Below, piece by piece: positions 9,747 through 50,140 of a DNA stretch of 64,000 nt. The DNA lies in NCBI GenBank assembly GCA_030388825.1, contig CP128835.1, positions 1,854,001 through 1,918,000 on the forward strand, read 5' to 3'. The translations under genes and the position numbers were made by a program. The notes beneath the pieces are model-generated. The model saw only the letters and a list, made by a program, of their open reading frames with translations. It did no database searches and was not told where the DNA came from. The DNA comes from Rossellomorea sp. AcN35-11. Lineage in GTDB: Bacteria > Bacillota > Bacilli > Bacillales > Bacillaceae_B. Positions within the stretch are counted from its first letter, which is position 1. Every line of letters starts with the position of its first letter.

Positions 9747-9929
9747 ATGGATGTGTCTTCATTGATGGGGAAGCAAGTTGCAGAGCTTCAACGAACACTC
9801 AGTATGAATTTGTTGAAAAGTCAGATGGCGACCCAGACAGCCCAAGTGACCGTCATGATGAAAGAAATGCAGGCCAGTCAACCTGCACCCCATCCCAGTA
9901 AAGGTCACGCTATTGATGTGAAGGGATGA
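9747..9929 (+). CDS. YjfB-family putative motility protein
   Basis: A 60-residue protein, MDVSSLMGKQVAELQRTLSM onward, whose N-terminal amphipathic helix pattern and short length fit the YjfB family (linked to motility by annotation only). The C-terminal tail is Pro/His-rich and probably disordered. A GAGGGGGAAG ribosome site precedes ATG 9747 and a strong terminator follows, so it is monocistronic. I see no SigD promoter that I would trust. Confidence 0.75.
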   Translation: MDVSSLMGKQVAELQRTLSMNLLKSQMATQTAQVTVMMKEMQASQPAPHPSKGHAIDVKG

Positions 9930-9935
9930 AACAGG

Positions 9936-9979
9936 AAAAAAGCCTTGTTCCGTGAGAGTGGGAACAAGGCTTTTTTTTG
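9936..9979 (+). terminator. Terminator of the yjfB-like gene
   Basis: AAAAAAGCCTTGTTCC and GGGAACAAGGCTTTTTTTT form a stem of 13 or more base pairs with an 8-nt loop and long T-run. Confidence 0.9.
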
Positions 9980-9993
9980 TTGAAACTGTCTTT

Positions 9994-10024
9994 TGCCGGG
10001 CCTGCCAGTCCGCCTCTGCTTTTC
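9994..10024. repeat. 3'-end fragment of the nested-palindrome repeat
   Basis: The bases match the last ~30 of the third full copy (GGGCCTGCCAGTCCGCCT versus GGGCCTACCAGTCCTCCT, then CTTTTC) but the 5' half is absent. It sits directly before full copy 1, as does a similar remnant in the second cluster. Confidence 0.7.
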
Positions 10025-10029
10025 GATTT

Positions 10030-10149
10030 GTCCAGCTCCGGGGCTTAGAGGCTCGAGGTCATAAGCCAAACCAACCAAAAAGGCAAAGAACGCCTTTCCG
10101 GTTGGTTCGTCTTATGCTTGTCGCCTCTTTCAAAGCCCCTCTGCTTTTC
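10030..10149. repeat. Nested-palindrome intergenic repeat, copy 1
   Basis: A ~120-bp element from TCCAGCTCCGG to GCTTTTC. Inner arms 10060-10076 and 10100-10116 pair with two mismatches, an AGGC-GCCT hairpin lies at the centre, and outer arms pair GGGGCTTAGAGGC with GCCTCTTTCAAAGCCCC. Elements with the same ends (TCCAGCTCC...GCTTGTCG...GCTTTTC) recur in Bacillaceae intergenic DNA as I remember them. Confidence 0.85.
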
Positions 10150-10154
10150 GATTT

Positions 10155-10274
10155 GTCCAGCTCCGGGGCTTAGAGGCTCGAGGTCATAAGCCAAACCAAC
10201 CAAAAAGGCAAAGAACGCCTTTCCGGTTGGTTCGTCTTATGCTTGTCGCATCTTTCAAAGCCCCTCCGCTTTTC
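10155..10274. repeat. Nested-palindrome intergenic repeat, copy 2
   Basis: Almost identical to copy 1 and offset from it by exactly 125 bp, so it arose by recent tandem duplication. Inner arms are 10185-10201 and 10225-10241. One outer-arm change (GTCGCATC for GTCGCCTC) weakens pairing. Confidence 0.85.
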
Positions 10275-10278
10275 GATT

Positions 10279-10400
10279 GTCCAGCTCCGGCGGCCAGTCC
10301 CTCGAGGTCATAAGTCAAGGGAACCAAAAAAGGCAAAGAACGCCTTTTCCGGTTCCCTCGCCTTATGCTTGTCGGGCCTACCAGTCCTCCTCCGCTTTTC
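10279..10400. repeat. Nested-palindrome intergenic repeat, copy 3
   Basis: Same architecture, but the inner arms (10309-10325 and 10351-10367) carry GGGAACC/GGTTCCC in place of AACCAACC/GGTTGGTT, and the outer arms carry AGTCCC/GGGCCT. Sequence changes on one arm are matched on the other, so pairing is kept while sequence is not. The element ends one base before the stop codon of the next gene. Confidence 0.85.
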
Positions 10401-10401
10401 T

Positions 10402-10647
10402 TTAATGCAAGCTCTTTTTTTCCAGTCTTACCCGTTCTTCGTTGTTGGACCATTTTTCTTTTAGTGTTTCGAATATGTATAGGCGGAAGAAGTATTGTAA
10501 TTCTTCGGTTTCCATTTCTTGAATGAGTTCCAGGAGTTCGTTCCTAGATGTATCTTCTAAGATTGTAAGGGCAATGAGGTCTAAGTCTTCGTCGGTACCT
10601 TTGATTCTTCCTCGGTACATTTCATAAATTTCTTCGATCAACTTCAT
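10402..10647 (-). CDS. DUF6154-like small conserved protein
   Basis: An 81-residue acidic helical protein (MKLIEEIYEMYRGRIKGTDE at the start, then ILEDTSRNELLELIQEM). The repeated Leu/Glu helices and length fit a Bacillaceae-only family that I remember as DUF6154; no function is known. The ATG at 10647 follows GGGAGGTGAAGTGC; an upstream in-frame ATG at 10680 has no site. Its stop codon abuts structured repeat copy 3, which may double as its 3' end. Confidence 0.7.
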   Translation of the reverse strand: MKLIEEIYEMYRGRIKGTDEDLDLIALTILEDTSRNELLELIQEMETEELQYFFRLYIFETLKEKWSNNEERVRLEKKSLH

Positions 10648-10831
10648 GCACTTCACCTCCCTTTCATTATATTTTAACATGAACCTTTATGAATTACGTA
10701 ACATATTATGCTAGGACAACTTTTATTTGTCTTTTACCCTTTCTGATACGAATTAACCACGGGTGATGATAGGGCTATCATTTCAAGTTTTTTGGGACAT
10801 GACCAATCATTCGGAAAAGGAGATGATCTAA

Positions 10832-16455: not shown

Positions 16456-16596
16456 GTTTTTCCTCCTTCTCATTTCTTCACATACTCAAAAGATATTCAG
16501 GCTTGTACGCCAACATGTTTGTTTTTTATCCAAATATTCCTCCACTTTGAAATGGATAAGGTGGTATAATGTTCCTTAAGTGAATAACCCTCGCAG

Positions 16597-16760
16597 AAAA
16601 TAGGTGCTGATCTTAAGCATAAAGGGAATTCGGTGTGACTCCGAAGCTGTCTCCGCAACTGTAAGTGCTGACGAAATAAGATAAAAACCACTATTTGTTT
16701 ATTCAGATGGGAAGGTTCTTAGAGTAGGCTGACGCACAAGCCAGGATACCTGCCTATTTT
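16597..16760 (+). promoter_or_regulatory. Cobalamin (AdoCbl/B12) riboswitch
   Basis: The aptamer has the core GGAATTCGGTGTGACTCCGA, then CCGCAACTGT, and the B12 box (AGCCAGGATACCTGCCTATT). Bases 16597-16604 (AAAATAGG) pair with 16753-16760 (CCTATTTT) as P1. An extended -10 (TGGTATAAT, ending 16570) lies 27 bp upstream. The riboswitch precedes an ATR-like gene and btuF, so these are made when B12 is short. Confidence 0.93.
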
Positions 16761-16837
16761 CCATCGTATTATGCTCTTCGGAAGTTAAGGGTATGGTGCG
16801 GCTTTTTAGCATCTCTTTTTTCATATGGATGACAACT

Positions 16838-18476: not shown

Positions 18477-18604
18477 CAAACAGGTTCATAGGTGACGAAA
18501 ATGCGAGAAAGGCGTATCGTTTTTTTTGTTACTATACGACTATTTGAAAAGAGAATGAATTATGGTAATAATAGTATGTAATACAAAATAATACGATCAA
18601 TATT

Positions 18605-18706
18605 TCTACTGGGGGAGTCCGATACATAGCTCGGACTGAGAGGAGAACGCATAAGTTCTTTGACCCTTTGAACCTGATCTGGATGATACCAGCGTAGGGA
18701 AGTAGT
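18605..18706 (+). promoter_or_regulatory. TPP riboswitch (THI element) of thiC
   Basis: Conserved core bases are present in order: GGGGAGTCC, GGACTGAGAGGA, CCCTTTGAACCTGATCTGG, ATGATACCAGCGTAGGGAAG. P1 pairs CTACT with AGTAG at 18606-18610 and 18701-18705. It precedes thiC by about 160 bp, with a terminator in between. Confidence 0.97.
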
Positions 18707-18755
18707 ACGGATGCGTTAGGTGTGTATTTTAGCGCATACTACTTTTTGACATGTC

Positions 18756-24674: not shown

Positions 24675-24827
24675 TACTCTTATCCTGAGCTGGTGGAGGG
24701 AGCAGACCCTATGAAACCCAGCAACCTGCTAAATAGTGAATGGATCCTTTCTGCCCGAAACGGTCCGATTGAGCGAAGGTGCTAAACTGAGGCAAGGTCT
24801 TCTAAGAACCTTGAACGATAAGAGAGA
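24675..24827 (+). promoter_or_regulatory. SAM-I (S-box) riboswitch of metK
   Basis: Conserved S-box blocks appear in order: CTCTTATCCTGAGCTGGTGG, GACCCTATGAAACCCAGCAA, AGGTGCTAAACTGAGG, and the closing GATAAGAGAG that pairs with CTCTTATC as P1. It lies about 200 bp before metK. Confidence 0.97.
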
Positions 24828-36385: not shown

Positions 36386-36510
36386 ATAAAAAGGGCTCCC
36401 GTTTCCTACGGAAGCCCACTTGCAAAAAATTGAGGCGAGAGATCAGCAAACGCCACATCGTTTGTTGTCACAAGGACGTGATCCCCGACTTACACAATTC
36501 AGCTCATCGC
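36386..36510 (-). ncRNA. Candidate small RNA with own promoter and terminator
   Basis: On the minus strand TTGTTT (36540-36545) and TATTCT (36517-36522) are 17 bp apart, a good housekeeping promoter. About 125 nt later a GC-rich stem (GGGCTTCCGT/ACGGGAGCCC) with TTTTT ends the transcript. Between them are a hairpin CAAACG-ATGTGG-CGTTTG and a possible closing helix of GAGCGATGAG with CTCTCGCCTC. No ORF with a ribosome site fits, and no gene follows on that strand, since yttB is convergent. I do not recognise an Rfam family; 6S RNA was considered but the long bulged hairpin is not evident. Confidence 0.55.
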
Positions 36511-41114: not shown

Positions 41115-41310
41115 GTGAGTTGATGGAGAAACGATCTTTTAGGAGGTCGTTTCCTTCTCTATGTTGGGCCCGCTTCCTCTCGGATTCACTACTTCTGTAT
41201 AGAACTGTGCCGTCTTCAATGACAAAAAATTGTCCCGCCCATCAACAATGGGCTTGCGCTTCTGAATATTTTTCACTAAAATAGTGAATACATATAATGT
41301 TTACCATATT

Positions 41311-41557
41311 GAAACGTTGATCAGGAGTAGTAGTGAAGGTTTTCTGACGTAGAGAGTTGACGGGTGGTGAAAGTCAACCAGAAGCATCATGAACTCGCCT
41401 GCTGAGTTGCAAGTGTGAACCTAAGTAAGACTTGCCGTTTTCCGCGTTAAGGATGAATGAAGCTGAGTGCGCGTACACTAATGTGGGTGGTACCGCGGGA
41501 GAATGTAAATACAAACTCTCGTCCCAAATATTTATTTGGGATGAGGGTTTTTTTATT
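41311..41557 (+). promoter_or_regulatory. T-box leader of leuS
   Basis: The T-box sequence AATGTGGGTGGTACCGCGGG lies at 41480-41499. A stem I with GAACTC at 41391-41396 gives CTC, a leucine codon, as the likely specifier. The leader ends in a terminator (GTCCCAAAT/ATTTGGGAT plus T8, about 41517-41557) that uncharged tRNA-Leu would prevent. Confidence 0.95.
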
Positions 41558-48675: not shown

Positions 48676-48832
48676 ATGCTCACCTCATTTATTTTCTTCA
48701 TAGTTGCTTCCTATAGTAGCCTATGTTAAGAATAGAAACATGAACTGGGTAAATGCCCATAGACAAGTGATAACAAGAAAACGGATGGATCTTATAAATA
48801 AATGAATACGACATTAATGGAGTGTGAACACG

Positions 48833-49552
48833 ATGAGAATAGATAAAATGCTGGCCAATATGGGGTACGGCAGCCGAAAAGAAGTAAAGAAATTATTGAA
48901 GGATGGCGGTCTTCAGGTCAATGGAGAGGTCATTAAGGATGGAAAAGTACATATCGATACAGAAAAGGATACCGTGATGCTGTACGGGGAGCAGGTTGAG
49001 TATCGTGAATTCATTTATCTGCTCATGAATAAACCGCCGGGTGTTATCTCTGCGACGGAAGATGGGCAGGAAGAAACCGTGATTGATTTACTTGAGTTGG
49101 AGGACCGAATCTTCAATCCATTCCCTGTAGGAAGACTCGACAAAGATACAGAAGGATTTCTTCTCATCACCAATGATGGTCAATTATCACACCAGCTTCT
49201 TTCACCGAAACGCCATGTCCCGAAAACGTATTTTGCCGTGATTGACGGGGAAGTGACTGAAGAGGATGTAAAAGCCTTCAAACAAGGTGTCACCCTGGAC
49301 GATGGGTACGAAACCAAGCCGGGTGAACTGACCATTTTAAAATCCGGTTTAACATCCGACATCGAACTGACGATCACAGAAGGGAAATTCCATCAAGTGA
49401 AAAGAATGTTTGAAAGTGTCGGGAAACGGGTCATGTATCTGAAGCGGATCACAATGGGACCGCTGGAGCTGGATAAAGATCTGGAGCTCGGGGAGTACCG
49501 TGAGCTGACGGAAGAGGAAGTTACGCTTCTGAAAGAATATAAGCCTGAATAA
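48833..49552 (+). CDS. ytzG: RsuA-family rRNA pseudouridine synthase (YtzG-like)
   Basis: A 239-residue protein with an N-terminal S4 domain (MRIDKMLANMGYGSRKEVKK) and an RsuA/RluB catalytic domain containing GRLDKDTEG with the essential Asp, and ITEGKFHQVKRMF. It isomerises uridine in rRNA, probably 16S as RsuA. ATG 48833 is chosen for spacing from GGAG; GTG 48824 is too close. Confidence 0.92.
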   Translation: MRIDKMLANMGYGSRKEVKKLLKDGGLQVNGEVIKDGKVHIDTEKDTVMLYGEQVEYREFIYLLMNKPPGVISATEDGQEETVIDLLELEDRIFNPFPVGRLDKDTEGFLLITNDGQLSHQLLSPKRHVPKTYFAVIDGEVTEEDVKAFKQGVTLDDGYETKPGELTILKSGLTSDIELTITEGKFHQVKRMFESVGKRVMYLKRITMGPLELDKDLELGEYRELTEEEVTLLKEYKPE

Positions 49553-49555
49553 GAT

Positions 49556-49605
49556 AGAGAGCGGGCAGCCCCTTACATATGCAAGGGGCTGCCCGCTCTT
49601 TTTGT
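49556..49605 (+). terminator. Terminator after ytzG
   Basis: GAGCGGGCAGCCCCTT and AAGGGGCTGCCCGCTC form a perfect 16-bp stem, then TTTTTG. Confidence 0.95.
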
Positions 49606-49607
49606 GC

Positions 49608-49665
49608 CGGAAAGGCAGTTCTTGGCTAATGCTTGTCTCCTCTGAACGAGCCGCCTCCGCTTTTC
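49608..49665. repeat. 3'-half fragment of the nested-palindrome repeat
   Basis: The bases GGAAAGGCAGTTCTTGGC... to GCTTTTC match the 3' half of the following copies, including TGCTTGTC and ACGAGCCGCCTCCGCTTTTC, but no 5' half precedes. Confidence 0.75.
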
Positions 49666-49667
49666 AT

Positions 49668-49789
49668 GATCCAGCTCCGGCGGCTAGGCCCTCGAGGTCA
49701 TAAGTCAAGAACGCCAAAAAGGCAAAGAACGCCTTTCCGGCGTTCTTGACTTATGCTTGTCGGGCCTAAACGAGCCGCCTCCGCTTTTC
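49668..49789. repeat. Nested-palindrome intergenic repeat, copy 4
   Basis: Best-paired copy: arms 49699-49715 (CATAAGTCAAGAACGCC) and 49739-49755 are perfectly complementary over 17 bp, with AGGC/GCCT inside. Outer arms GGCGGCTAGGCCC and GGGCCTAAACGAGCCGCC also pair. Confidence 0.9.
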
Positions 49790-49791
49790 AT

Positions 49792-49915
49792 GATCCAGCT
49801 CCGGCGGCTAGAGGCTCGAGGTCATAAGGTAAACCTGCCAAAAAAGGCAAAAACCCGCCTTTCCGGCAGGTTCACCTTATGCTTGTCGCCTCTAAACGAG
49901 CCGCCTCCGCTTTTC
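49792..49915. repeat. Nested-palindrome intergenic repeat, copy 5
   Basis: Arms 49823-49839 (CATAAGGTAAACCTGCC) and 49865-49881 pair with one mismatch, though the arm sequence differs from copy 4 at about half of its variable positions. Its right end runs into the coding sequence of ytzE. Confidence 0.9.
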
Positions 49916-50140
49916 TATTATGATGTCATTTTTACTTTTTTTCTCTGTAGTTGTCCATTGACCTCTGGTGGGGCTTTGCACCAGGTCATTATACACTAAC
50001 ACGTTGAGATCTCTTTGTATGGTGCGAGGAGTAATGCCAAATTCGTCTACAAGATCTTGAGTTGTTACAGTACCTTTCTGATTAATGTACATGTATACAG
50101 CTTTGATTCTAGTTAGCATACGATTGGTTGACGGTTTCAA
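49892..50140 (-). CDS. ytzE: YtzE-like DeoR-type HTH regulator
   Basis: An 82-residue protein that is little more than a DeoR-type winged helix (AVYMYINQKGTVTTQDLVDE, then FGITPRTIQRDLNVL). There is no effector domain, so it may act as a bare DNA-binding protein. It starts at TTG 50140 behind GGGAG. The last eight codons (IEKRRRLV) and the stop lie within repeat copy 5, so the native C terminus was probably replaced or extended by the repeat. Confidence 0.82.
   Translation of the reverse strand: MKPSTNRMLTRIKAVYMYINQKGTVTTQDLVDEFGITPRTIQRDLNVLVYNDLVQSPTRGQWTTTEKKSKNDIIIEKRRRLV

Follow-up and report, generated by a model that had tools for sequence, protein, structure and literature searches.

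A covarying, hairpin-forming interspersed repeat of the Bacillales

Structured interspersed repeats are known as a general kind. The BOX elements of Streptococcus pneumoniae are small structured intergenic repeats containing a module in variable tandem number; their authors consider them parasitic, with slow transposition, and over-represented between convergent genes (PMC3049150). REP sequences are defined as 20-40 bp long with a GTAG or CGTC tag at one end (PMC3733652), and REPs, BIMEs and REPINs are intergenic, of high copy number, palindromic and clustered, the BIMEs alternating in orientation (PMC2817692, PMC3116915, PMC3733652). Two intergenic stem-loop repeats, Bhal-1 of B. halodurans (74-bp model, 36 copies) and bcr1 of Bacillus, the latter described in the title of its own paper as specific to the B. 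cereus group, appear in a further report (PMC2267715).

We describe a repeat of the order Bacillales for which BOX is nearest in behaviour, a variable number of tandem modules being common to both. BOX is a composite (boxA, boxB array, boxC) nearly confined to a few streptococci, whereas here the whole hairpin is repeated and the distribution is order-wide. Distinct flanking modules like boxA and boxC were not observed; the one recurrent neighbour of the arrays is a truncated copy, which in most cases stands on the left. Like the REP family the repeat is intergenic, of high copy number, palindromic and clustered, but its unit of about 120 nt, head-to-tail arrangement, GTCCAGC and CTTTTC ends and lack of a link to RAYT set it outside the REP definition as those accounts give it. 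The terminal inverted repeats of a MITE are also missing. The outermost 9 nt or so, GTCCAGCTC and CCGCTTTTC, share only AGC/GCT, and continuous arm pairing begins inside them. Bhal-1, to judge from its description, might be part of the same family, and bcr1 is set apart by its reported restriction to the B. cereus group.

Two arrays and their repeat unit

The window, a 64,000-nt stretch of the genome of Rossellomorea sp. AcN35-11, contains two plus-strand arrays of this DNA repeat, at 9993-10400 and 49620-49915. Array 1 has three full units and array 2 has two, at a spacing of 124-126 nt, and in both the right half of another unit stands before the full ones. The features are as follows.

9942..9980, plus strand: terminator-like hairpin with a T-run, left neighbour of array 1, 3' of a small ORF at 9747-9929 (read by eye)
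9993..10024 (about), plus strand: array 1, leading truncated copy that retains the right half alone (repeat family D4)
10030..10149, plus strand: array 1, unit 1, with left arm, inner hairpin and right arm
10155..10274, plus strand: array 1, unit 2 (identity to unit 1 about 98%)
10279..10400, plus strand: array 1, unit 3, arms diverged, ending 1 nt from the facing ORF
10402..10680, minus strand: facing ORF, DUF6154 (PF19651)
49560..49600, plus strand: terminator-like inverted repeat (I3) with a T-run, 3' of a pseudouridylate synthase ORF at 48824-49552
49620..49665 (about), plus strand: array 2, leading truncated copy that retains the right half alone
49670..49789, plus strand: array 2, unit 1
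49794..49915, plus strand: array 2, unit 2

Each unit comprises a left arm (from GTCCAGCTCC to TCGAGGTCATAAG), then an inner stem of variable sequence whose loop is of the AAAGAAC type, and finally a right arm (from CTTATGCTTGTCG to CCGCTTTTC). In a consensus of 115 copies GTCCAGC lies at the start and CTTTTC at the end. Within the window, exact matches to the anchors CTTATGCTTGTCG and TCGAGGTCATAAG are confined to the five full copies, and their counts at up to two mismatches were reached in none of 100 shuffles. Each unit can be folded as a single long imperfect hairpin, with an energy below that of all 200 of its own dinucleotide shuffles (z from -3.0 to -8.6).

The first-pass annotation had placed the five full copies correctly to within 1-2 nt. 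The arm variants that it quoted are present, although the near identity of copies 1 and 2 leaves four distinct variants. Its two types of outer arm were likewise found, but they do not simply alternate: copy 3 pairs CAGTCCC with GGGCCT except for a T-C mismatch, and in copy 2 one pair is broken (GCATCT). The variability reported for inner and outer arms is confirmed and extends to the outermost arm (GGGGCTT/AAAGCCCC as against GGCGGC/GCCGCC). The truncated leading copies are missing from that description.

At the right of array 2 a DeoR-type helix-turn-helix ORF (49892-50140, minus strand) takes its final codons and stop from the last unit, while in relatives such as G005 the frame stops short of the repeat; by eye, an A-run near the 3' end of this ORF is apparently one base longer in the window. 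Elsewhere in the window, at 16585-16771, 18601-18717, 24677-24824, 36394-36510 and 41308-41529, Rfam matches correspond to cobalamin, TPP and SAM riboswitches, the BsrF sRNA (minus strand) and a T-box leader.

Covariation and the shape of the hairpin

Five copies from one window prove little, so the case for covariation is carried by larger alignments. For the genus, 46 of 50 representative copies were aligned without reference to structure. In that alignment 90.0% of cells are paired and 30 of 39 pairs show two-sided change, and neither value was reached in 500 shuffles; when partners are slid out of register pairing falls to 32-48%. A tree-based null was then constructed in the manner of R-scape, with parsimony substitutions redistributed along a FastTree tree. 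Against it, covariation is significant at nine of the 39 pairs in the 46 genus copies and at 16 of the 39 in 115 copies from the genus and other genera. The larger alignment was fitted to the structure of the model and leans towards it, which is not the case for the smaller one. No significant pair of columns outside the structure was detected in either. The compensatory change proposed at first pass therefore stands, and the outcome named there as its refutation, covariation no higher than background, did not occur under the tree null.

How did the compensated pairs arise? Among 33 pairs of copies differing by three bases or fewer we counted 40 one-sided stem changes, one two-sided uncompensated change and no compensatory change. 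Between copies 19-30 bases apart there are 18,898 compensated two-sided differences as against 9,728 one-sided, counts that are not independent since the copies are related. The arms therefore change singly, with compensation following later. These data bear on the possibility that covariation arises without selection, by hairpin-templated repair or arm conversion. Distant copies do differ by many compensated pairs together, and non-standard pairs are rare, as such a process would give; but the excess of one-sided change among near-identical copies runs the other way and the commonest mismatches stay uncorrected. We regard this explanation as very unlikely, and arm conversion, which the annotation had offered alongside selection, is not upheld as the main cause.

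The lasting common mismatches are A-C at columns 40/85, C-T or T-C at 38/87 and G-T at 29/95, and the internal loops keep their motifs, CTCGAGGTC (left) and GCTTGTCG (right). Together they point to recognition of a shaped hairpin, beyond pairing alone. Non-paired cells standing in the stems number 38 G-T, 118 A-C and 237 of other types, so that G-U is not favoured. We attempted to identify the folded strand from wobble pairs and abandoned this approach; the bias of A-C over G-T is also present among near-identical copies and therefore reveals little. It amounts to about three to one in the stems of alignments A2 and A3, with recent changes at 16 against two, and in the loops of the same alignments C>T types exceed G>A.

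The extent of the evolving unit was judged at 215 left-arm positions that differ, drawn from 51 pairs of neighbouring units. At 165 of these positions the right arm is complementary to the left arm of its own unit alone, and at 31 to that of the next unit alone. The evolving unit is left arm, inner hairpin and right arm.

Array ends, placement and turnover

The two ends of the arrays behave differently. An anchored extension, scored above 99% of shuffled flanks, shows sequence of a preceding unit running leftward in 99 of 127 arrays, orthologous ones included, over 7-121 nt and for about two thirds over 15-55 nt. Sequence of a following unit runs rightward in 18 of the 127, 17 of them over 7-31 nt and one over 124 nt. 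Arrays of the window's genome (G000) have one to six full units each, and its 34 non-nested arrays give 31 left and four right extensions. A two-unit profile agrees: 111 of 119 right ends lie at model positions 118-134 with eight beyond, while 117 left starts, individually approximate, are scattered over positions 5-127. The profile match of window array 1 overruns into the terminator hairpin, and the anchored extension was added as a check.

Placement and orientation were assessed with a home-made gene finder in two genomes, G000 and G007, a relative of the same genus, the G007 set being drawn from among the matches listed. None of 82 clusters lies inside a predicted gene. Where the array and the next gene on the right face one another, the right end is within 6 nt of the stop codon in nine of 11 cases (G000) and ten of 15 (G007). 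In 33 of 50 cases (20/27 and 13/23) an array is separated from an upstream gene on its own strand by a terminator-like hairpin, a figure obtained without a control. The idea that terminators are insertion targets was set aside, since insertions ahead of a terminator may simply be selected against, which would account for such a figure.

The same hairpins bear on whether the repeat is a structured RNA with a role in the host, an mRNA 3' end, small RNA or attenuator, selected as a folded transcript. Covarying helices, conserved internal-loop motifs and window copies that all fold below their shuffles would suit such a role. Against it, G-U pairs have no advantage over other mismatches, array 1 yielded no promoter-like site and occupancy varies inside the genus. 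Moreover, since a terminator-like hairpin intervenes so frequently, with the caveat that this count lacks a control, many arrays would lie beyond the upstream transcript. A host RNA is, in our judgement, unlikely.

Orientation follows local GC skew. Of 35 non-nested clusters in each genome, the skew-positive strand carries 31 in G000 and 25 in G007. Convergent and divergent contexts are informative because gene direction cannot explain orientation there, and in these 18 of 23 clusters are on the skew-positive strand (9/9 in G000, 9/14 in G007). This suggests a link to replication, for example a single-stranded lagging-strand template as substrate or target. A replication-strand rule as such was not retained, being strong in the window's genome and weaker in G007.

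Solo copies also occur inside a second dispersed repeat with ends like GTTGATT...ATCAAC, in five of 40 clusters in G000 and seven of 42 in G007 (loci L031, L043, L054, L057, L060, L364, L367, L374, L379, L391, L398 and L401). In one form of this second repeat the unit directly precedes a TCCAGCTATTCCC motif, and L380 has a version without the unit.

Within arrays the median best identity is 97.5% and 98.3%, as against 90.8% and 92.6% between loci. Copies are found downstream of the gene left of array 2 at 14 of 30 genus loci and beside the gene right of array 1 at eight of 30; in G002, G011-G013 and G027 they are some hundred bases off. Of the 40 G000 loci, 31 were compared with a syntenic region of G007, the other nine including the five nested solo copies. 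The G007 counterparts comprise 18 with full copies, six with partial copies only and seven without the repeat, and the number of units per array differs between the two genomes at shared sites. All six partial-only loci are left-truncated and reach the right end, just what would remain after recombination of a truncated right half with a full one. It follows that most sites are old and copy number is volatile, with a solitary right end the usual remnant. At one orthologous site followed in three genomes the left ends differ between species and the right junction is similar; later deletion may shape part of the spread of left ends.

Most compared sites are occupied in both species, which implies that new insertions are rare, and none was caught. 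Fresh transposition was considered for two near-identical G007 arrays 1 Mb apart and rejected. Both sites are filled in the window's genome too, and for these most similar arrays ectopic conversion therefore fits better. Comparison of occupied with empty sites revealed no constant target-site duplication, and the left ends vary.

Distribution and a possible mode of copying

That the family is abundant, as the annotation had supposed, is borne out within the genus and beyond. Matches occur in 35 of 36 genus genomes, at least 27 of them in 30 of the 36; among the matches listed, G007 has at least 91 and G029 at least 84. Few or none are present in G014 (0), G016 (1) and G017 (1, in a genome 84% complete), and G020 and G034 also count as repeat-poor. 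With strict filters and 12 candidates scored per genome, covariance model R1 matches 217 of 299 genomes of the order Bacillales, in 83 of 116 genera (E 0.001). At E 1e-5 a scan of the phylum with R1 matches six of 398 genomes: five belong to the order, the window's genome among them, and the sixth to the same class. When named genomes were scanned with a pattern, the matches listed were mostly Rossellomorea and Bacillus sp., together with Sutcliffiella, Cytobacillus, Jeotgalibacillus, Metabacillus, Pseudoneobacillus and others.

In the window's genome all 91 BLAST matches are on the 4.19-Mb contig and none is on the 0.63-Mb contig. This second contig (628 kb) has a G+C content of about 37% in three stretches, compared with 40-46% for four loci of the chromosome; it could represent a megaplasmid or, with 9.23% flagged, contamination. 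Using one query copy, a single plasmid record of 72,556 was matched, from a Cytobacillus replicon of 690 kb, and the 50,697 phage records gave no match.

These distributions are relevant to a further alternative, that the repeat is a chromosomal DNA hairpin or cruciform serving the host in replication, recombination or nucleoid structure. Orientation along the skew-positive strand, in symmetric contexts as well, the near absence from plasmid and phage records as judged with one query copy, and the second contig without a match are all consistent with this. Yet G007 alone is weak in symmetric contexts, some genus genomes (G014, G016 and the incomplete G017) are almost without copies, and site occupancy differs between close relatives. 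We consider such a host function rather improbable.

No Rfam 15 family overlaps the repeat at the gathering cut-off in the window, in 20 loci of other genera or in 11 further loci, and array 1 searched at E values up to 10 gave only matches far under the cut-off. RF01690 (Bacillaceae-1 RNA) is a structured Bacillaceae RNA which matches about 30 nt from a copy in another genus (L156:1653-1719, 59 bits); it does not overlap the repeat and matches no other scanned copy-bearing stretch. No account of the repeat turned up when the open-licence literature was searched with words and with sequence strings, which is weak evidence of absence. The family is real and seemingly selected for its fold, and as an order-wide repeat family it is apparently undescribed.

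The best explanation, to which we assign a probability of roughly 0.6, is that this is a non-autonomous, BOX- or REP-like interspersed repeat, spread across the order, with a hairpin recognized during copying. It behaves like an old, slow genomic parasite. By analogy with what is supposed for BOX- or REP-like parasites, the fold would be retained as the substrate recognized for copying. Copying would begin at the CTTTTC end and halt at variable points; arrays would grow and shrink by recombination between truncated and full right halves, which may sometimes leave a solitary left-truncated copy. Evidence against this reading includes the minority of right ends that run on, eight of 119 by profile and 18 of 127 by extension, the failure to catch a new insertion or a constant target-site duplication, and the better fit of ectopic conversion and later deletion to some of the sites described above.

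What might supply the copying machinery? Y1 transposases and group II maturases, looked for in 36 genomes, did not yield a helper gene. No autonomous relative was found, and no larger, gene-carrying version was noticed among the matches in the window's genome. A REP/REPIN-type element mobilized by a RAYT (Y1) transposase is one candidate, and Y1_Tnp genes are present in all 36 genus genomes. However, the repeat is absent from 48 Y1 loci of 2.5-5.5 kb (part of those found), the three chromosomal RAYTs of the window's genome included. No RAYT clade is common to the repeat-rich genomes in a tree of 16 of the 36, G012 and G013 have one Y1 gene each, of a clade missing from G019, and the unit is at least three times the length of a REP. 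RAYT mobilization thus appears highly improbable. Group II intron mobilization was discarded, the GIIM domain being present in ten of 36 genomes and absent from the repeat-rich G007 and G029.

A different form of copying would use a circular or tandem template of single units, RNA or single-stranded DNA, starting at the CTTTTC end, continuing for one or more rounds and stopping anywhere. This would give arrays of one truncated unit followed by a number of full units. We hold it doubtful, with only a slim chance of being correct; if true, it would represent a bacterial rolling-circle or SINE-like parasite without a recognized helper.

The interest of the family lies in ends that are one-sided and a helper that is missing; the ends together with a covarying fold offer a testable lead to a copying system. 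The repeat may also break assemblies: a draft contig from the same species ends within both arrays, the 39.5-kb G024:C29 starting inside array 1 and stopping inside array 2. Although the order is well studied and 83 of the 116 genera sampled from it carry this structured repeat, Rfam lacks an entry for it. Because its sites are long-lived, it can serve as a model for the persistence of structured repeats.
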